Shown here: one piece after another, positions 1,039 to 11,371 of the stretch
How the letters are laid out: each line of letters begins with the position of its first letter
Position numbering within the stretch: position 1 is the first letter of the stretch
NCBI GenBank assembly: GCA_003166955.1
Contig: PMUI01000116.1
Location: forward strand, 17,282-52,528
Reading direction: 5' to 3'
Length of the DNA stretch: 35,247 nt
DNA from: Acidobacterium sp.
Lineage (GTDB): Bacteria; Acidobacteriota; Terriglobia; Terriglobales; Acidobacteriaceae
The notes under the pieces: model-generated
Seen by the model: only the letters and a program-made list of their open reading frames with translations
Databases searched by the model: none
Told to the model about the DNA's origin: nothing
Program-made: the position numbers and the translations under genes

Positions 1039-1821
1039 ATGCCCATGGAATCGGGAGCGGAGCGGCGGGGACTGCTGGGGCTCAAACTGCCGCGATCGGC
1101 GAAGAACGCCGAGGAGGAGGAGGCGCGCGCGATTCAGGCGCGGTTGCTGCCGGGCGAGATACCGCAGCTTGAGGGTTTCGAGATTGCGAGCGCATGGCGT
1201 CCGTCGACGCAGGTGAGCGGGGACTATTTCGACGTTTTTCAGCTCGACGGCGACAGGATGGCGCTGTGCATTGCCGATGTATCGGGCAAGGGGATGGCGG
1301 CAGTGACGCTGATGAGCGAGCTGCACGACGCGGTGCGGAAATTTGCTCCGGACGCGGGATCGCCGGCCCAGCTGTGCACGGAGGTGAACCAGGCGCTGTG
1401 CCGGCCGGGAGCGCAGACGCGCTACGTGACGATGTTCTATGGGGTGCTGGAACTGGGAGAGTTGCGACTGCGCTACGAAAGCGCGGGACATTGCCTGCCG
1501 CTGCTGGTGCGCGGCGACGGGAGCGTGGAGTTTCTGGCGAGCTTCAGCGGCGTGATCGGGATTTTTTCGCACTGGCTGTATCAGGATCAGGAAGTGCTGT
1601 TACGGTCCGGCGATTGTCTGCTGCTGGTGACCGATGGGCTACTGCAGGCGGAGAATCGGCGGCATGAGGAGTTCGGGTATCAGCGCATGATTGCGGCGGT
1701 GGAAAGCGGACGCGCGCTGGGGGTGGAAGGTTTGAGGGCGGAGATTCTGACGGCGGTGACGAAGTTCTGCGGGGGAAAGCTGCAGGATGATGCTTCTCTG
1801 ATTGTGGTGCGAGTGCAGTGA
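1039..1821 (+). CDS. SpoIIE/RsbU-type PP2C serine phosphatase
   Basis: This 260-residue protein is almost only a SpoIIE-type PP2C domain (about residues 30-260). Such phosphatases remove phosphate from Ser or Thr of STAS anti-sigma antagonists in partner-switching pathways. Visible motifs are QARLLPG (34-40), VSGDYFD (59-65, with D62 as a likely metal ligand), IADVSGKGMAA (78-88), SAGHCLPLL, LLLVTDGLLQAEN (194-206, D199) and DDASLIVV (250-257). No sensor domain (GAF, PAS, receiver or membrane segment) is present; only about 30 charged residues precede the domain. How it is controlled is therefore unclear. The start at 1039 has no clear Shine-Dalgarno sequence, and ATG 1045 is an alternative. 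A STAS protein at 5922 is a plausible substrate, though three minus-strand genes separate them. No anti-sigma kinase is in the window. Confidence 0.9.
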   Translation: MPMESGAERRGLLGLKLPRSAKNAEEEEARAIQARLLPGEIPQLEGFEIASAWRPSTQVSGDYFDVFQLDGDRMALCIADVSGKGMAAVTLMSELHDAVRKFAPDAGSPAQLCTEVNQALCRPGAQTRYVTMFYGVLELGELRLRYESAGHCLPLLVRGDGSVEFLASFSGVIGIFSHWLYQDQEVLLRSGDCLLLVTDGLLQAENRRHEEFGYQRMIAAVESGRALGVEGLRAEILTAVTKFCGGKLQDDASLIVVRVQ

Positions 1822-1832
1822 GCGGCGCGGTT

Positions 1833-2093
1833 CTACTGGGTCGCCGAGGATTGACGCGCTTCGAGTTTGGTGAGACGGCGGTCGATATCCAGCTTGTTGT
1901 CAACAGCCTGGATCTGCTTGCTGAGGGAGTCGAGCTTCACCTCGACGGAGGCGAACTTTACGTCCATCCCTTCGAACCTGACGTCCATGACCTTTTCGAT
2001 TGCGTCGAGGCGTGCCGAGATGGTACGCAGCTCGGGCGCCAGAAAATCCTGAATCGCCTTGCGGACGTCTTCTACCGCGCTCATAGATTCCAT
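1833..2093 (-). CDS. small coiled-coil protein, function unknown
   Basis: From ATG 2093 this gives 86 residues; an upstream ATG at 2144 would add MQMFRRFALTPKPAAAR, and ATG 2084 is a shorter option. The body is predicted alpha-helical. From about residue 12 it runs IQDFLAPELRTISARLDAIEKVMD, then a near-repetitive pattern of VRFEGMDVKFASVEVKLDSL. Hydrophobic residues spaced by 3-4 suggest a coiled coil, perhaps an oligomeriser. There is no signal peptide, membrane segment or catalytic motif. It ends 11 bp from the convergent phosphatase stop and lies downstream of the secreted-protein gene ending at 2174. I do not recognise a named family. The steady heptad pattern makes a real gene more likely than a shadow. 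Confidence 0.6.
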   Translation of the reverse strand: MESMSAVEDVRKAIQDFLAPELRTISARLDAIEKVMDVRFEGMDVKFASVEVKLDSLSKQIQAVDNKLDIDRRLTKLEARQSSATQ

Positions 2094-2173: not shown

Positions 2174-3910
2174 TCAGCGCGGCTGCACTTCCACGGCGGA
2201 CGATAGCGCGAGGGTCTTTTGCCCGGTGACCTGCACCTTGATGCCTCCGGCGAGATAGGGCGCGATGACTTCGGGGCGGGCCCAGTCCAGAGTCCAGCCA
2301 TTTTCGATGGCGACCAGCGTATAGATTCCGGGAACGACGCGATTCAGCGTGAAGCTGCCGTCGGTGTTGCTCTGATCGCGGCGGTAGAGATCGGGACCGG
2401 CGTTGCGGTTGTGCGGGACGAGGAGAATCATCGCGCCACCGCCGCCTTTGCCGTCACGATTGGCGAAGCCGGTGACGGTGGTCGATCCGGTGGCGAGGAT
2501 GGCTGCGATCATGACAGGCTCGGATGCCACCGTGATGCGATTACCCTGGGATTGCGCGCCGGAGACGGCGATCTGCGCGACGGCGAGTGCGGAGCCGGGA
2601 GCGCGTACCTCAAACTCATAGGAGCCCGGCGAGATGGAGTGCAGTTGAAATGTACCGTCGGCTTCGACGCGGATGGGGTTGACGGGAGGCCCACCATTCG
2701 CGGCCGTGAGCACAACGGTCACGCGATCCGGAAGCTTATCCCCGGAGAACATCGCCAGTTTCCCGGCGACGTCCACGCCGCCAGCGGAGGCCGCGGCGAA
2801 ATCGACGATCTGATCGCTGGTCAGATCCGCGCTGGCAGTGCGGTTGCCTTCCCCCTGCTGCCCAAACTGGCGGAGCATGTAGTGGCCGGGCGCTATGCCG
2901 CCCAGATTGGCGACGACCGAGCCGCTTTTGGCCGCCGTCGTGAACTGGGTGGCCTGCTGATATTCTTCGGTGCCAAAGACATCCTGGACCAGCTGCGGCA
3001 TGGGGATGCCGCGATTTTCTCCGGGTTGCTGCAGTCGAATCTGGATGTGGATGGAGGGAACGGCATGCAGGGTGAGATTGGCCTCCACGTGGTCGCCGGC
3101 ATTGACGGAGATGGCCGTGGCGGAGTCGGAGTCGATGGCGTTTTCGTAGAAGGTGGTGGAGTAGGCGACATCGACGGGCGAATGTGTCTGCTGATCCGCG
3201 GGAAGAATGTTGCCACTGTCATCGGTTTTGGGGCTGGGATGGAAGGCGTACCAGGGTGACGCCGCGACGGACACATAGTAGGTGCCGGGGCGGAGGCGGG
3301 CGAATTCATAGGCGCCAGTGTCGTCGGTGATGTCGTTGCCGGCGCCCAGGATTTTGCTTTCGCCGGTGCGTTGATCCTGCCGGAAGAGATGTACCTGAGC
3401 GCCGCCGATGGGCTCGCCTGCCTCGTCGGTGATGACGCCGCCGATGATCGCAGTGGGACGCAGCTCGAGCCGCAAGCCTGCTGTGTTGAGATTCGCGCCG
3501 GTGACGATGCCGGTGGAGAAGCTGTCGTGGTCCTGGTAGCCGCCGGCGATGTAGCCGCGGCGCGAGGCTTCAAGATGGTAGCGGCCTGCCTGCAGGTGAT
3601 CGAAGCGAAAACTGCCGTTCTCGGTAGTGACGGATTCGGCGATGGGCGCGCCGCGCTGTCCGGGGGTAGAGAGCGCAACTTCGGCGCGGTCGAGCGGCGT
3701 CCCGCTGGTTGCGCTGACAACGATTCCACTGATGCTGAAGGACGCAGGGCCGGAAAGGTGCGACTCCTGCTCCACAGTGTCGGAGGGTGGGGCTGTTTGA
3801 ACCTCGGGAGCGGGCGGAGGTGAAGGAGGGGGCGCGACGATTTGCGCTGCAAGGGCAAACGGGAGGCCGAGCAGCAAGGAAGCTGCGAGGGCGTGGAATC
3901 TCCGGGTCAT
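2174..3910 (-). CDS. secreted multi-domain carboxypeptidase-regulatory-like protein
   Basis: This 578-residue protein starts at ATG 3910, where MTRRFHALAASLLLGLPFALAA forms a clear Sec signal peptide. The frame stays open upstream to an ATG at 4063, but that extension crosses a palindromic repeat and hides the signal peptide, so it is rejected. A Pro-rich linker follows the signal. Next come beta-sandwich modules of the carboxypeptidase-regulatory/CnaB-like type: FSISGIVVSATSGTPLDRAEVAL...GSFRFDHLQAGRYHLEA (about 58-120) and IGGVITDEAGEPIGGAQVHLF...GAYEFARLRPGTYYVSV (about 155-220). Further copies end in GTFQLHSISPGSYEFEV and GSFTLNRVVPGIYTLVA. No catalytic domain was seen. Such proteins are expected outside the inner membrane, and a binding or structural role is only an inference. 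It is a domain-level relative of its neighbour at 4060, on the same strand. No good Shine-Dalgarno sequence precedes the start. Confidence 0.85.
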   Translation of the reverse strand: MTRRFHALAASLLLGLPFALAAQIVAPPPSPPPAPEVQTAPPSDTVEQESHLSGPASFSISGIVVSATSGTPLDRAEVALSTPGQRGAPIAESVTTENGSFRFDHLQAGRYHLEASRRGYIAGGYQDHDSFSTGIVTGANLNTAGLRLELRPTAIIGGVITDEAGEPIGGAQVHLFRQDQRTGESKILGAGNDITDDTGAYEFARLRPGTYYVSVAASPWYAFHPSPKTDDSGNILPADQQTHSPVDVAYSTTFYENAIDSDSATAISVNAGDHVEANLTLHAVPSIHIQIRLQQPGENRGIPMPQLVQDVFGTEEYQQATQFTTAAKSGSVVANLGGIAPGHYMLRQFGQQGEGNRTASADLTSDQIVDFAAASAGGVDVAGKLAMFSGDKLPDRVTVVLTAANGGPPVNPIRVEADGTFQLHSISPGSYEFEVRAPGSALAVAQIAVSGAQSQGNRITVASEPVMIAAILATGSTTVTGFANRDGKGGGGAMILLVPHNRNAGPDLYRRDQSNTDGSFTLNRVVPGIYTLVAIENGWTLDWARPEVIAPYLAGGIKVQVTGQKTLALSSAVEVQPR

Positions 3911-6266: not shown

Positions 6267-6557
6267 GTTACAGGTTACAGGGTGGTGCGGCGGTTCTCTT
6301 GAACCGTGCCTGTGTTTCGTTTCGATTCTCGCGAAAATCTGAGCGTGGTTACTGCGGATGCCCCAGGCGGGTGCTATCCCTTCGCACAGTGCACATTCAG
6401 AGTCGCACCAAATTTTGGGGATTGCCCCCCGCTGCGATCAGGGATACCATTCGGGGCGAACTTTAATTTCAGGAACTTCTTTGCACGTTCTCGGCCGGTT
6501 TCCGGTGGGAGCGCTGCAAATCTGTAGGCGTTTCTGTCCAAACTGCCGAGGTTGCCC
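6267..6557 (+). other. 291-bp intergenic region before the S53 protease
   Basis: It begins with GTTACAG repeated twice (6267-6280). A short hairpin follows, CGGTTC-TCTT-GAACCG (6291-6306), then a T-rich stretch TGTTTCGTTT, which may terminate the STAS transcript. The remaining 250 bp show no convincing open frame and no clear sigma-70 promoter. GAGG at 6548-6551 is the Shine-Dalgarno sequence that selects ATG 6558. Confidence 0.5.
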
Positions 6558-9500
6558 ATGAAATCCGTCCTTCGTCTTTCCGCATTTGCCCTGGCCGCAG
6601 CTGCTGTTTGCCTTCCGCTCGAATCGCAGAGTACGCAGCCTGCGGCGGTGAGCAATCGCATCACGGCTCCGATTGACGAAAGCAATCTGGTCGCGCTAAG
6701 CGGGAACATTCACCCGATGGCGCAGGCGCGCTTCGATGCCGGGCCGGCGCCGTCAGGCATGGCGACGGGACGGATCATACTGCTGTTGCAGCGGAGCGTG
6801 GCGCAACAGCAGGCGCTGACCGATTATCTGGCCGACGTGCAGAACCCGTCATCGCCGTCGTTTCACAAATGGCTGACGCCGGCGCAGTTTGGCGCGGCTT
6901 ACGGCATTTCGGATTCCGATTTGCAGACCGTGGAAGGCTGGCTGCAGTCGCAGGGATTCAAAGTGGAGAAGGTGCCGGCGGCGCGCAACTTGATTCAGTT
7001 TTCCGGCACGACCGGGCAAATCGAGAGCGCCTTCCACACATCGATCCACGCATTCTCGGTTCTGGGGGAGACGCACTACGCGAACGTGAGCGATCCACAG
7101 ATCCCTGCCGCTTTGGCTCCGGTGGTCGCCGGTGTGACGCCGCTCAATGATTTTCGTCCGAAGCCCCACGTCGTGAAGGGCGGCAGCGGCCACTACGATG
7201 CCACGACCGGTACGTTGCAGCCGGACCTGACACTGTTCAGCGGCAGTACGCCGCTGCTATTCGTCGACCCCGCGGATGCGGCCACGATTTACGACACCCC
7301 CAACACGAACCTGAACCTTAATTTCACCAGCGGAACGACGTACGACGGGACGGGAGTGAACATCGGCGTCGTGGGCGTCTCGGACCTGACGATCGCCGAC
7401 GTGCAGAACTACCGGGTGGCGTTTCTGGGGGAAACCAGCGGCACGGTGAATTTGCCGACGGTGATCATCGACGGCGACGATCCTGGACTGAACGGAGCCG
7501 GGGTGGAGACGCTGCTGGACAACGAGGTGTCGGGGGGTATCGCGCCCAAGGCGAAGGTGTATTACTACGCGGCCGCTGACACCGACCTGACTTCCGGGCT
7601 CTACAATGCGATCCTGCGCGCCATCGACGACAACGCGGTGGCGATTCTCAGCATGAGCTTTGGGGAGTGCGAAGCCAGTCTGGGAACAAGCGGCAATAGT
7701 TTCCTCGACGAGGTGGCGCAACAGGCGGCCGCACAGGGCATCAGCTGGGTAGTTTCGGCTGGAGACGGCGGCTCGGCTGGATGCGACGATTTCGACACCG
7801 AAACGCAAGCGACGGGCGGACTGGCGGTCAGCGGCATGGCTTCGACTCCGTGGACCATCGCTGTGGGCGGCACCGATTTTGACGTGCTTCCGACGGCGTT
7901 CGCGACCTACGCGAACGCGACGTCGAGTGGAACAGCGCCGTATTACCGGACCGCGCTGAAGTATATTCCGGAGAATCCGTGGAACGATTCGACCTCGGTC
8001 GATACGGCCATCGCAAACAACGTACGTTACATCAACAGCCAGGGACAGGGAAATATTGTTGCCGGCAGCGGCGGCATGAGCAACGTGTATGCGAAGCCTT
8101 CGTACCAGGTCTCCCTCACGCCTGCCGACAGCGTCCGCGATCTGCCGGACGTCTCACTGTTTGCCTCGAATGGATTTGAGCAGGCGATGTGGCTGATCTG
8201 TTCTGACAACGTGACGGACGGCAATCCCTTCCAGACGTACACCAATTGCCAGACTTCCGGCGGCGCGTTGCAAAGCGGGACCACCTTCGACGGAGTTGGA
8301 GGAACGTCGGCTTCCGCGCCGGCATTTGCCGGTGTGCTGGCGCTGGTTTCGCAGTCGCAGGGTGGAGCGCGTCTGGGACAGGCGAATTCCATCCTCTACC
8401 AGCTGGCGAAGTCGAAATACGCGACGGTGTTCCACGATGTGACGGTGGGCAACAACTCGGTTCCCTGCGTCACCGGTTCGCCGAACTGCGGCACGAACCT
8501 CTTCCTGACGGGATATGCGGCGGGGACGGGGTACGATCTGGCCACGGGGCTGGGCAGCGTCGACGTGAAGCAGCTGATCGCAAACTGGAGCAGCGTTGCG
8601 CTGACCTCTACGACGACGACGCTGTCCATCAATGGGTCTACCGCTGCTTACTCCGGCGTGCATGGAAAGTCGGTGCCGTTCGCCGTGGGTGTGACCCCGA
8701 CAGCGGCGACCGGCGCCGTGGCTGTGATCGACACGGCGAATCAGACATCGGGGGGCACGGGCAGCGGACCGCAGAACAACGGCCAGTTGTCGATTGCGCT
8801 CGCGAGCGGCGCGGGATCGGCGAGCTACAACGGTTTGCCGGGCGGGACGTACACCGTCTCGGCGCGATATGGCGGGGACACGTCTGACGCGTCGAGCACT
8901 TCGACGCCGATCAGCGTGACGATTTCGCCGGAAGCGAGCACGACGGCGCTGGAGGTGAATGCCTACAACGCCATCACGGGCAATGGGATTTCAGCGACGA
9001 ACATTCCGTACGGCTCGTACATTTTCACGGATGCGCAGATTACGGGGACGGCGGAGGGAACGGGGACCGAGGGTACTGCCACCGGCACGGTTACATTTGT
9101 GGACGGCACCACAAATTTGGCGACAGTGAATGTCAGTTCGAACGGCAATATCGCGTCATGGCCGCCACTGAATAGTAACCCCGCTGTCTTGTCGCCGGGG
9201 TCGCACAGCATTACCGCGAAATATTCCGGGGATTCGAGCTTCAATGCGAGCACCAGCGGCGCGGTCGCGGTCTCGGTGGTGAAGGGTATTACGACGCTGT
9301 CGGCTACGTCGAACTTGAATTCCATCAACTCTTCGCAATCGGTGACGATCACGGCCAGTATCACCACGCTGCAATCGCTGGGGGCTGTGCCCACGGGCAA
9401 TGTAACGCTGACAGCGAATGGATCGACGGTGGGGACGATTTCGACTCTGACAGCTACCTACCAGGGAACCAACGTGGTTCTGACGGGATCGGCGACGATT

Positions 9501-10823
9501 CAAGGCAGCCAACTGCAAGTCGGCAGCAACTCCATCACGGTCGCCTACGCGGGCGACACGAATTATGCAGCCGCAACCAGCCAGGTGGTGACGGTTACGG
9601 TCACGCCCTCGGGCAGCTTTATTCTCAGCAACAGTGGCAACGACTTTGTGCAGGTGGGAAACAGCACCACGTCGACGCTGACGGTGACGCCCACCGGCGG
9701 TTTCACGGGGGCAGTGAACTTCACCTGCGCGGTCACTGGATCGCCGGCGGGAATGACCTGCAGCGCGCCGGCGGCCACAGTGACGGGCACGAGCGCGGCA
9801 ACGTCGACGCTGACGGTTGCGACGACGGCGGCGACTCCAGCGAGCGTGTACTCGGCGACGGTAACCGCCAAAGATGCGGCCACCGGCACGATCACGTCCA
9901 GCGTGGTGGTCTCGATCACCGTGACAACGACGCCTCCGGTTGCTGGATTGTCGCTGGGGGCGAATCCTGGAACGCTGACTTTCGCGGCCGGAGCCACGTC
10001 GGGGAATACCTCGGCGATCAGCGTGAGCCCAGTGGGCGGGTTTACAGGAGCGGTGAATCTGACCTGCGCGATTACGAGTTCGCCGGGGGGTTCGACGGAC
10101 ACTCCGACGTGCACGGTCACGACGCCGGTATCGATCAGCGGAACGACTGCGGCCAGCAGCACGCTCACGGTGGCGACCCAGACTGGGACTACCAGCGGGG
10201 CGTATACGTTGACGGTGAACGCGACGGCGACTGGCATAGCTACCGCTAGTACGACGGTGACGGTGAACGTCTCTGCTGTTCCGTCGATCGCGCTGACCAG
10301 CAGCGGCAACATCACGGTGGCCCCGGGGGCGATTACCGGCAACACGTCGGTGATTTCGGTGACGCCGGCTGGCGGCTTCACGGGCCAGGTGAACGTGAGC
10401 TGTGCGCTGACGAGTTCGCCATCGGGCGCGTCCGAAGTACCGACCTGCTCGATTCCTTCTTCGGTCACCATCAGTGGGACGACGGCGGCAACGACGACGT
10501 TAATTGTGAACACCACCGCTGTAACGAGCGGAGCGCTCGATCTTCCGCTGAAGAAGTTCTTCGTGGGCGGAGCCGGAGGGGTGCTGGCGCTGGTGCTGTT
10601 GTTTGGGATTCCGGCGCGGCGGCGTGCGTGGCGGGCGCTGCTCAGCGTGATCGCACTGGTGGTCATCGCCGGAGCGATTGGCTGCGGCGGCGGAGGAAAC
10701 AAGGGCGGAGGCGGCGGCAATTCGGGAACCACGGCGGGCGCGTACACCGTGACGGTGACGGGAACGGATGCTGCTACCGGCAAGATCACGTCAACCGTGG
10801 CGGTGACGATTACGGTGAACTGA
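6558..10823 (+). CDS. pro-kumamolisin-like S53 (sedolisin) peptidase with C-terminal Ig-like repeats
   Basis: This protein has 1421 residues. GAGG upstream favours ATG 6558 over a TTG 6 bp earlier. A signal peptide (about 1-24) is followed by a pro-kumamolisin activation domain (about 45-200). The S53 catalytic domain (about 235-680) shows E317 and D321 in GVETLLDNE, the oxyanion Asp D403 in SAGDGG, and Ser S584 in GGTSASAP. FHDVTVGNN and GTGYDLATGLGS resemble the calcium-site region. Sedolisins are acid-active endopeptidases matured by removing the propeptide. The C-terminal half is Ig-like: three Big_5-like domains, then three repeats built on GGFTGAVNFTC. Hydrophobic stretches at about 1333-1352 and 1360-1376, the second ending GAIGCGGGG, interrupt the last repeat. 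The protease is therefore probably anchored, although Ser/Thr-rich repeats could also support release. The catalytic assignment is firm; the topology is inferred. Confidence 0.93.
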   Translation: MKSVLRLSAFALAAAAVCLPLESQSTQPAAVSNRITAPIDESNLVALSGNIHPMAQARFDAGPAPSGMATGRIILLLQRSVAQQQALTDYLADVQNPSSPSFHKWLTPAQFGAAYGISDSDLQTVEGWLQSQGFKVEKVPAARNLIQFSGTTGQIESAFHTSIHAFSVLGETHYANVSDPQIPAALAPVVAGVTPLNDFRPKPHVVKGGSGHYDATTGTLQPDLTLFSGSTPLLFVDPADAATIYDTPNTNLNLNFTSGTTYDGTGVNIGVVGVSDLTIADVQNYRVAFLGETSGTVNLPTVIIDGDDPGLNGAGVETLLDNEVSGGIAPKAKVYYYAAADTDLTSGLYNAILRAIDDNAVAILSMSFGECEASLGTSGNSFLDEVAQQAAAQGISWVVSAGDGGSAGCDDFDTETQATGGLAVSGMASTPWTIAVGGTDFDVLPTAFATYANATSSGTAPYYRTALKYIPENPWNDSTSVDTAIANNVRYINSQGQGNIVAGSGGMSNVYAKPSYQVSLTPADSVRDLPDVSLFASNGFEQAMWLICSDNVTDGNPFQTYTNCQTSGGALQSGTTFDGVGGTSASAPAFAGVLALVSQSQGGARLGQANSILYQLAKSKYATVFHDVTVGNNSVPCVTGSPNCGTNLFLTGYAAGTGYDLATGLGSVDVKQLIANWSSVALTSTTTTLSINGSTAAYSGVHGKSVPFAVGVTPTAATGAVAVIDTANQTSGGTGSGPQNNGQLSIALASGAGSASYNGLPGGTYTVSARYGGDTSDASSTSTPISVTISPEASTTALEVNAYNAITGNGISATNIPYGSYIFTDAQITGTAEGTGTEGTATGTVTFVDGTTNLATVNVSSNGNIASWPPLNSNPAVLSPGSHSITAKYSGDSSFNASTSGAVAVSVVKGITTLSATSNLNSINSSQSVTITASITTLQSLGAVPTGNVTLTANGSTVGTISTLTATYQGTNVVLTGSATIQGSQLQVGSNSITVAYAGDTNYAAATSQVVTVTVTPSGSFILSNSGNDFVQVGNSTTSTLTVTPTGGFTGAVNFTCAVTGSPAGMTCSAPAATVTGTSAATSTLTVATTAATPASVYSATVTAKDAATGTITSSVVVSITVTTTPPVAGLSLGANPGTLTFAAGATSGNTSAISVSPVGGFTGAVNLTCAITSSPGGSTDTPTCTVTTPVSISGTTAASSTLTVATQTGTTSGAYTLTVNATATGIATASTTVTVNVSAVPSIALTSSGNITVAPGAITGNTSVISVTPAGGFTGQVNVSCALTSSPSGASEVPTCSIPSSVTISGTTAATTTLIVNTTAVTSGALDLPLKKFFVGGAGGVLALVLLFGIPARRRAWRALLSVIALVVIAGAIGCGGGGNKGGGGGNSGTTAGAYTVTVTGTDAATGKITSTVAVTITVN

Positions 10824-10879: not shown

Positions 10880-11371
10880 ATGAGACTGCCGATCCGGTTT
10901 GTGGGTGCCCTGTGCTTGCTGGCGGCGGGGTGTGCAATTACCCCGGCCGCAGAGGCGCAGGACGTCAAGGTTCCCTATGTGGCGCCGCGGCCGGCGAACA
11001 CACTGGTGATGCTGCCGGATGGATCGACGGTGAAGGTTGAGCTGGCGACGACGGATGCAGAGCAGGCGTACGGGCTGATGGGGCGGACGAGCTTACCGGA
11101 GGGGCGCGGGATGCTGTTCGTGCACGGCGATATGGCGAAGCATCCGTACTGGATGTACCACTGCAAGATCGGCCTGGACATTGTGTGGATGGACTCCGAC
11201 CACCGCATCGTGGAGATGAGCCCGGATACTCCGCCGTGTCTCGGGAAGTCGTCGACATGCCCGAACTACGGCGGGCATGAAGTTGCACAGTATGTGCTGG
11301 AGCTGCCGGTGGGTTCGATCAAAAAGCATCGGCTGGCGGTTGGGGAGAAGGTGGAGTTTTCGCTGCAGTAA
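10880..11371 (+). CDS. exported DUF192 family protein
   Basis: This is a 163-residue protein. The N-terminus MRLPIRFVGALCLLAAGCAITPAAEA is an export signal. It may be a lipoprotein signal with the acylated Cys at position 18 (LAAGC), or a signal peptidase I site after AEA (about residue 26). The DUF192 core follows: VKVELATTDAEQAYGLMGRTSLPEGRGMLFV (about 50-80), YWMYHCKIGLDIVWMD (91-106) and HRIVEMSP. The family is widespread and small, with no agreed function, and is often periplasmic. The segment PPCLGKSSTCPNYGGHEVAQYVLELP carries two cysteines that could pair outside the cytoplasm. An AGAGGG sits just before ATG 10880. It follows the protease on the same strand, but the repeat-filled spacer leaves co-transcription open. 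Confidence 0.88.
   Translation: MRLPIRFVGALCLLAAGCAITPAAEAQDVKVPYVAPRPANTLVMLPDGSTVKVELATTDAEQAYGLMGRTSLPEGRGMLFVHGDMAKHPYWMYHCKIGLDIVWMDSDHRIVEMSPDTPPCLGKSSTCPNYGGHEVAQYVLELPVGSIKKHRLAVGEKVEFSLQ

Follow-up and report, generated by a model that had tools for sequence, protein, structure and literature searches.

MYXO-CTERM tails, as described in the available part of PMC11980579, consist of an invariant cysteine, a transmembrane (TM) helix and an arginine-rich C-terminus, have an inverted topology and lack a defined lipobox; Lgt-like lipidation and a membrane protease are proposed for them there. In the GlyGly-CTERM/rhombosortase system, according to the accessible portion of PMC6219818, a Gly/Ser motif precedes a hydrophobic region and basic residues. 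The sorting tags of both systems, so far as these portions describe them, end in a membrane helix and basic residues. The tag analysed here is embedded in a fold, to which its final part contributes two strands. It occurs in a stretch of 35,247 nucleotides from an Acidobacterium sp. (contig PMUI01000116.1, positions 17,282 to 52,528; the window), at the end of an S53-type peptidase gene.

Among the sorting systems compared, MYXO-CTERM is the nearest that has been worked out, with order of parts and topology reversed relative to the window tail, as far as the available part of the source shows. Both have a C-terminal tail with an invariant Cys, a TM helix and an Arg-rich segment, carried by many exported proteins (PMC11980579). 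The parts run Cys, TM helix, Arg-rich end in MYXO-CTERM, whereas the window tail has a first helix (TM1), a basic loop, a second helix (TM2), the Cys and two strands, and this reversal, judged on those tails of the present kind whose sequences were inspected, rules out membership. The tail has in common with GlyGly-CTERM a Gly/Ser-rich stretch, a hydrophobic helix and basic residues near the C-terminus; unlike in GlyGly-CTERM, as portrayed in the accessible portion of PMC6219818, the Gly/Ser stretch comes after TM2, and the protein terminates in a folded segment. The two terminal beta strands exclude the tail from that family.

Type II lipoprotein signal peptides, the substrates of Lgt and LspA, share with the tail a basic n-region, an h-region, Gly, Ala or Ser (G/A/S) before the Cys, a Gly/Ser tether after it and a Cys at the predicted outer membrane face. 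They sit N-terminally, whereas the signal in the tail is internal, about 40 residues from the C-terminus and after a long exported chain; the tail is also looser at position -3, and the product cut off would be two strands of another domain.

Beta-sandwiches completed by strands that are non-covalently bound or no longer covalently joined are known from donor-strand complemented pilins and from nicked domains of the GAIN/SEA type. Unlike in these, both parts of the tail domain would come from one precursor, with a membrane hairpin between them and a predicted lipid on the complementing strands.

The tail is already catalogued by NCBIfam as NF058595 (invert_tail, "lipo-invert putative C-terminal anchoring domain"), a name that itself proposes a putative lipoprotein-related C-terminal anchor. 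The whole window protein scores 60.1 bits against a cut-off of 37; the tail alone scores 64.7 bits and matches the model over its full length (positions 1-113 of 113). We found no account of the tail in the accessible portions of the literature retrieved on Acidobacteria sorting signals and on Acidobacteria lipoproteins with Ig-like domains. Nor is it described in the best-ranked part of the literature on internal lipoboxes and signal peptides, or in the accessible portions of that on C-terminal sorting (Haft-type) and split beta-sandwiches (strict query). The term "lipo-invert" is absent from the literature searched, and the available part of PMC12636315 has no relevance to the tail. What the present analysis adds to NF058595 is the split fold, the insertion site, a Cys-masked test and the internal signal-peptide topology. 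Many secreted proteins of soil Acidobacteria carry such an interrupted terminal domain, and their last two strands may be cut off and lipidated, with these strands tethering the rest.

A membrane hairpin within the last Ig-like repeat

The host protein ends in three GGFTG-type Ig-like repeats, the third of which is interrupted. Its layout is as follows.

6552..10823, plus strand: S53 host gene (pro-kumamolisin-type peptidase with Big_3_5 and Ig-like repeats), 1,423 aa, uninterrupted frame
9936..10274, plus strand: intact Ig-like repeat two, residues about 1129-1241, the uninterrupted reference for the split repeat; AlphaFold model
10278..10517, plus strand: strands A-E of the split Ig-like domain, before the hairpin and ending in TTLIVNTT, residues 1243-1322; model and repeat profile
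10488..10820, plus strand: NF058595 invert_tail match, residues 1313-1423
From 10494, plus strand: TTLIVNTT, residues 1315-1322
10557..10613, plus strand: TM1, FFVGGAGGVLALVLLFGIP, residues 1336-1354, starting FFVGGAGG; sequence and modelled helix 1333-1352 (pLDDT blocks 62-75)
10617..10634, plus strand: basic loop RRRAWR, from residue 1356; predicted cytoplasmic and also the n-region of the putative internal signal peptide
10635..10682, plus strand: TM2, comprising an h-region (starting ALLSVIAL) and the lipobox-like GAIG, residues 1362-1377; modelled helix 1360-1375
10683..10685, plus strand: conserved Cys1378 of GAIGC, predicted lipidation site and cleavage point
10686..10727, plus strand: Gly-rich tether GGGGNKGGGGGNSG, read from the sequence; pLDDT is at its lowest here (block mean 50)
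10728..10820, plus strand: last two strands, F and G, starting TTAGAYTVTVTGT, residues 1393-1423; model and profile, likewise in the homologue L196

The open reading frame was called from a TTG, with an ATG at 6558 the likelier start and the stop at 10821-10823. A Pfam scan placed the pro-kumamolisin activation domain (PF09286) at residues 65-201 and found Big_3_5 domains (PF16640); it returned no match to a catalytic domain. The protein contains ETLLDNE at residue 319 and GGTSASAP at residue 583, which we take to be candidate S53 catalytic motifs, and we regard the region after PF09286 as a candidate S53 catalytic domain. The next gene downstream (10880-11371, plus strand) encodes a short exported-looking protein of 163 aa, which presumably resembles the DUF192 family.

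A reading of the window from its sequence only had placed a membrane segment inside the last Ig-like repeat of the S53 protease, and the coordinates above confirm this, with the frame continuous throughout. The third repeat resumes at residue 1393 with TTAGAYTVTVTGTDAATGKITSTVAVTITVN and runs to the stop, so that the final 31 residues of the host are the two strands that the third repeat lacks. The hairpin itself has a layout like that of a signal peptide, RRRAWR-ALLSVIALVVIA-GAIG-C. The same order of parts recurs in all 123 loci of a set that includes the tail of the window (L002) and omits L011, L012, nine whole-gene loci and the duplicate L124; this identity of order means that the architecture is not due to chance.

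Evidence for a split Ig-like domain

We compared a profile built from eight intact repeats, two from the window and six from other loci, with 181 tails at a permissive E value of 10. The profile finds a match before the hairpin in 176 tails and after the Cys in 154, with an E value below 0.01 in 122 of the latter; 153 tails match on both sides. Where both sides match (n = 153), the upstream match ends at a median profile position of 73 (range 52-95) and the downstream match starts at 67 (range 45-75) and ends at a median of 97, the last of 97 positions. In 84 of the 153 the two matches share more than five profile positions, and one match spans the hairpin. These limits place the insert in the loop between the fifth and sixth strands (E/F).

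Several parts of the sequence-only reading can be judged by this comparison. An insertion between strands that leaves the domain split is borne out by the 153 tails in which both flanks match, and the break point, whose lack of conservation had been named beforehand as one outcome that would refute the idea, proved to be conserved when the profile was compared with the 181 tails. The resemblance of the last strands to repeat two is upheld by the matches to the intact-repeat profile, which also rule out a chance likeness. The suggestion that the domain might be split across the membrane probably does not hold: because the hairpin has two helices, both halves should lie on one face, the outer one, and we reject a membrane that divides the Ig-like domain.

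The models were likewise searched for an arrangement in which the final strands form an independent domain, and those of both the window tail and the homologous tail L196 place the strands in the split domain. In the AlphaFold model of the window tail (101-row alignment), the last two strands have block-mean pLDDT values of 96-98 and the helices 62-77. The best structural match of the intact repeat (model residues 4-114) is a sialidase Ig-like domain (2ber, residues 404-502; Z 12.4, 98 residues, 2.0 Å). Matches that cover two domains extend as far as the model does; one of them, intimin D00-D0, aligns 186 of 206 residues at 4.9 Å. Many such matches have a large r.m.s.d., up to about 21 Å, presumably because the two domains sit at other angles.

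In L196 (29-814, minus strand) the Cys and the two final strands are separated by a Big_3-like domain, and the model of this tail is of moderate confidence (pLDDT 71.4, pTM 0.47). Residues 13-262 align as a single domain to the same sialidase Ig-like domain (94 residues, 2.1 Å, Z 11.4). Residues 13-79 number only 67, so that at least 27 aligned positions must lie further along the chain; the last strand closes the alignment, and all of the 50 structural matches listed end at residue 262. According to this model, the last strands complete the split domain despite the intervening domain, which is a stronger test than the model of the window. Strand order and contacts in both cases were deduced from alignment ranges, in AlphaFold2 models that contain no membrane. 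Taken as predictions from sequence and model, these results make the split Ig-like domain well supported.

A modular tail across a bacterial family

The hairpin is no oddity of the S53 gene; it belongs to a modular tail with an NCBIfam model of its own. The genome of the window has 12 matches to NF058595, ten of them over the cut-off; of the two weak matches, L011 is a tail-like frame that is disrupted and L012 is an N-terminal lipoprotein. Eight of the ten hosts over the cut-off, plus the window, were scanned for domains, with a host of 2,991 aa (L070) left aside. Four of them have matches to pro-kumamolisin and/or subtilase-type peptidases (the window, L069, L074 and L075), and others carry GH53 together with ricin-type lectin domains, an NHL propeller or ASH/HYDIN-type repeats. 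Because the hosts have unrelated domains, the tail is a modular cassette and not part of one enzyme.

In the GTDB family of the window, the tail was matched in all 60 genomes sampled and exceeded the cut-off in 58. Counts over the cut-off were 88 of 151 genomes for the class, where tails are numerous in three GTDB families (f1, f83 and f84), and 36 of 297 for the phylum. Among the phylum matches listed, those above the cut-off come from the family of the window and from a genus outside the class, represented by two genomes. The latter tails (L048 in G268 and L052 in G323) are from the same phylum, and horizontal transfer is a possible origin. None of 14 control genomes exceeded the cut-off and five matched at an E value of 0.001; matches below the cut-off are thus partly noise, and we therefore rely on cut-off counts. 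At an E value of 0.001, single genomes reach up to 42 matches (G029). The 12 loci from a scan of genome contigs are, by their titles, from Acidobacteriaceae or Acidobacteria metagenome-assembled genomes, and a tblastn search of the tail against plasmids gave no match.

The conserved cysteine and its surroundings

The residue before the Cys is G/A/S in 121 of the 123 tails; when residues were drawn at random 1,000 times from the 14 positions upstream, G/A/S came up in 45 of the 123 on average and in 61 at most. One of the two exceptions (L063) is a later Cys wrongly picked. The NCBIfam model presumably contains the Cys, and we therefore searched again with the Cys and five neighbouring positions masked in the profile. 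This gave 78 matches in eight genomes, among which were 69 distinct hairpin tails, and the Cys is present in all 69 (preceded by G in 50, A in 14 and S in 5). The other nine matches comprise five intact repeats (two in L198, and L199, L200 and L201), one N-terminal lipoprotein (L202), two remnants and one match of 22 bits on contig C30 that was set aside. One remnant (L203) has an internal stop and no second score, and the other (L204, on contig C82 of the same genome as the window) lacks both hairpin and Cys. The rescan also included L012, which is not a hit of the masked profile; L017 and the duplicates L136, L143 and L151 were dropped.

Tails from the NF058595 and Cys-masked searches were pooled, which gave 182. 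G/A/S precedes the Cys in 180 of these, which favours the earlier proposal that the Cys of GAIGC is a putative acylation site. The basic loop has a net charge of at least +2 in all 182, the last 12 residues before the Cys are uncharged in 176, and the Kyte-Doolittle value (17 aa) is at least 1.6 for TM2 in 177 and for TM1 in 153 (below 1.6 in the other 29). By eye, where host N-termini are visible, several resemble ordinary Sec signals. Together with the basic loop and the hydrophobic TM2, this predicts that the Cys terminates an N-in, C-out helix on the outer side of the membrane, and such a predicted helix ending at a Cys is the geometry of a lipoprotein signal peptide.

At -3 the tails are less strict than a textbook lipobox (among the 182: L 59, A 23, M 15, Q 11, V 10, W 9 and E 5), which counts against a standard lipoprotein signal. 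A PROSITE-type lipobox pattern fits only 85 of the 123 tails (a few with the Cys mis-picked), compared with a mean of 39 and a maximum of 56 in shuffles. Native N-terminal lipoproteins provided too small a reference (18 candidates, seven with G/A/S at -1, from 312 open reading frames in about 400 kb). In the 123 tails the distance from the Cys to the C-terminus is 33-57 residues (the window has it at residue 1378 of 1423), and none has Asp at +2. The E. coli rule relates Asp at +2 to lipoprotein routing; if it applies here, the missing Asp suggests that a lipidated tail would go to the outer membrane. On these sequence features, an internal lipoprotein signal in the tail is likely.

Possible processing and anchoring

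We hypothesize that the tail serves as a cassette for anchoring, in which the E-F loop of a split Ig-like beta-sandwich contains an internal lipoprotein signal peptide that is processed by Lgt and LspA. We give this reading a probability of roughly 0.55. Sequences and models supply TM1, the basic loop, TM2, the G/A/S-Cys pair, the Gly/Ser tether and two strands that pack into the fold; from these we infer the cleavage, the lipidation, the persistence of the nicked domain and its final location. An N-terminal Sec signal would start export of the host, TM1 would stop it with the basic loop remaining inside, and TM2 would restart it, oriented like the signal peptide of any ordinary lipoprotein and leaving the Cys on the outer side. 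Diacylglycerol could then be added to the Cys by Lgt, and LspA could cut just before it. The C-terminal product would be a peptide of about 40 residues anchored by its lipid. Its two strands would remain part of the Ig-like domain, so that the long N-terminal chain would be retained through strand complementation, without a covalent bond.

Given a lipidated Cys and a cut chain, the product would be a lipoprotein in which anchor and cargo are joined by folding and not by a peptide bond, and a lipoprotein signal peptide could work about 1,370 residues into an exported chain. This offers a testable explanation for a possible retention of peptidases, glycosidases and other exoproteins on the cells of soil Acidobacteria.

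After such a cut, TM1 and TM2 would either stay on the long chain as an inner-membrane anchor or be removed as well. Because an LspA cut leaves both helices on that chain, the lipid anchor would be partly redundant unless there is a second cut; no conserved motif was noticed ahead of TM1. Excision of the whole hairpin, by LspA at the Cys and by a second protease before TM1, would leave the exoenzyme held on the outer membrane only by the lipid-bearing strands. We consider this extension rather unlikely; were it correct, the tail would be a general and potentially releasable form of surface display for the secretome of Acidobacteriaceae and related families.

The main rival is an anchor that is never cut, in which TM1 and TM2 pin the completed Ig-like domain to the inner membrane and lipidation of the Cys is optional. 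Two hydrophobic segments with a basic loop are the rule among the 182 tails, AlphaFold2 folds the domain around an uncut chain in both the window and L196, and the flexible linkers on either side of the hairpin would permit such an arrangement. However, an uncleaved anchor needs neither the Cys retained in 69 of 69 masked-search tails nor the G/A/S before it in 180 of 182, and has no need for a lipobox-shaped outer end of TM2 followed by a Gly/Ser tether. With this evidence on both sides, we would expect the uncut form to be the true one in only a minority of outcomes.

LspA was found in 145 of 151 genomes of the class, with a single match in 139 of those, in tail-rich and tail-poor families alike. 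A general enzyme is thus available, and we reject a dedicated extra paralogue, none having been seen among these genomes. Two of the six genomes with no LspA match bear tails (G409, 88% complete; G449, 94%), which counts against LspA and is perhaps explained by incompleteness.

These two genomes would fit a different reading, in which a dedicated intramembrane sorting protease (CPBP/myxosortase-like or rhomboid) processes the hairpin in place of Lgt and LspA, with lipidation of the Cys possible, along the lines suggested for MYXO-CTERM. The relaxed -3 position would suit a non-standard enzyme, and the abundance of tails in the three families named above is what a dedicated sorting system would give. 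CPBP-family proteins occur in all six genomes tested (three to eight each), but also in 11 of 14 controls, so that their counts do not discriminate. The predicted topology matches an ordinary lipoprotein signal peptide and is opposite to the one given for MYXO-CTERM in the available part of PMC11980579, and the presence of exosortase does not track the tail. Exosortase (PF09721) had no match in the tail-rich genomes G277, G301, G008, G013 and G031 and has matches in many genomes of the tail-poor family f2, which rules it out as an obligatory enzyme of the PEP-CTERM/exosortase kind. A dedicated protease is, in our estimate, improbable. Another role for the Cys (in a disulfide, a metal site or a thioester), with the tail only a secretion or folding signal, is very improbable, given that the Cys sits at the membrane edge in a hydrophobic, G/A/S context with a flexible Gly/Ser stretch behind it, and that the last 110 residues of the 123 tails hold on average about half another Cys and thus no regular disulfide partner.

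Variant tails and remnants

The remnant L204 in the genome of the window (C82:60417-60590, minus strand) reads TTAGLYGLMITGTDAATGKFTSSVAVTVTVN, almost like the last strands of the window tail. It follows closely on the tail of another peptidase gene (L004/L069), in a different frame, and its sequence looks as if a tail cassette had been replaced by recombination and the old end left behind.

Two loci have the basic loop, TM2, Cys and last strands without the upstream Ig-like strands: L237, a short frame around 2934-3173 (plus strand), and L239, around 1651-1977 (reverse-complement coordinates). They may be remnants or separately encoded lipidated strand pairs, and their assemblies are fragmented (50 and 450 contigs).

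In five tails the Gly run is replaced by an aromatic stretch soon after the Cys: CNPRYRYL (L007), CGARYGYL (L142), CNARWGYL (L144), CNPRYYYF (L060) and CSAQYWYY (L135). Each is in a short open frame of 314-360 aa, and the five are perhaps a distinct short subfamily.
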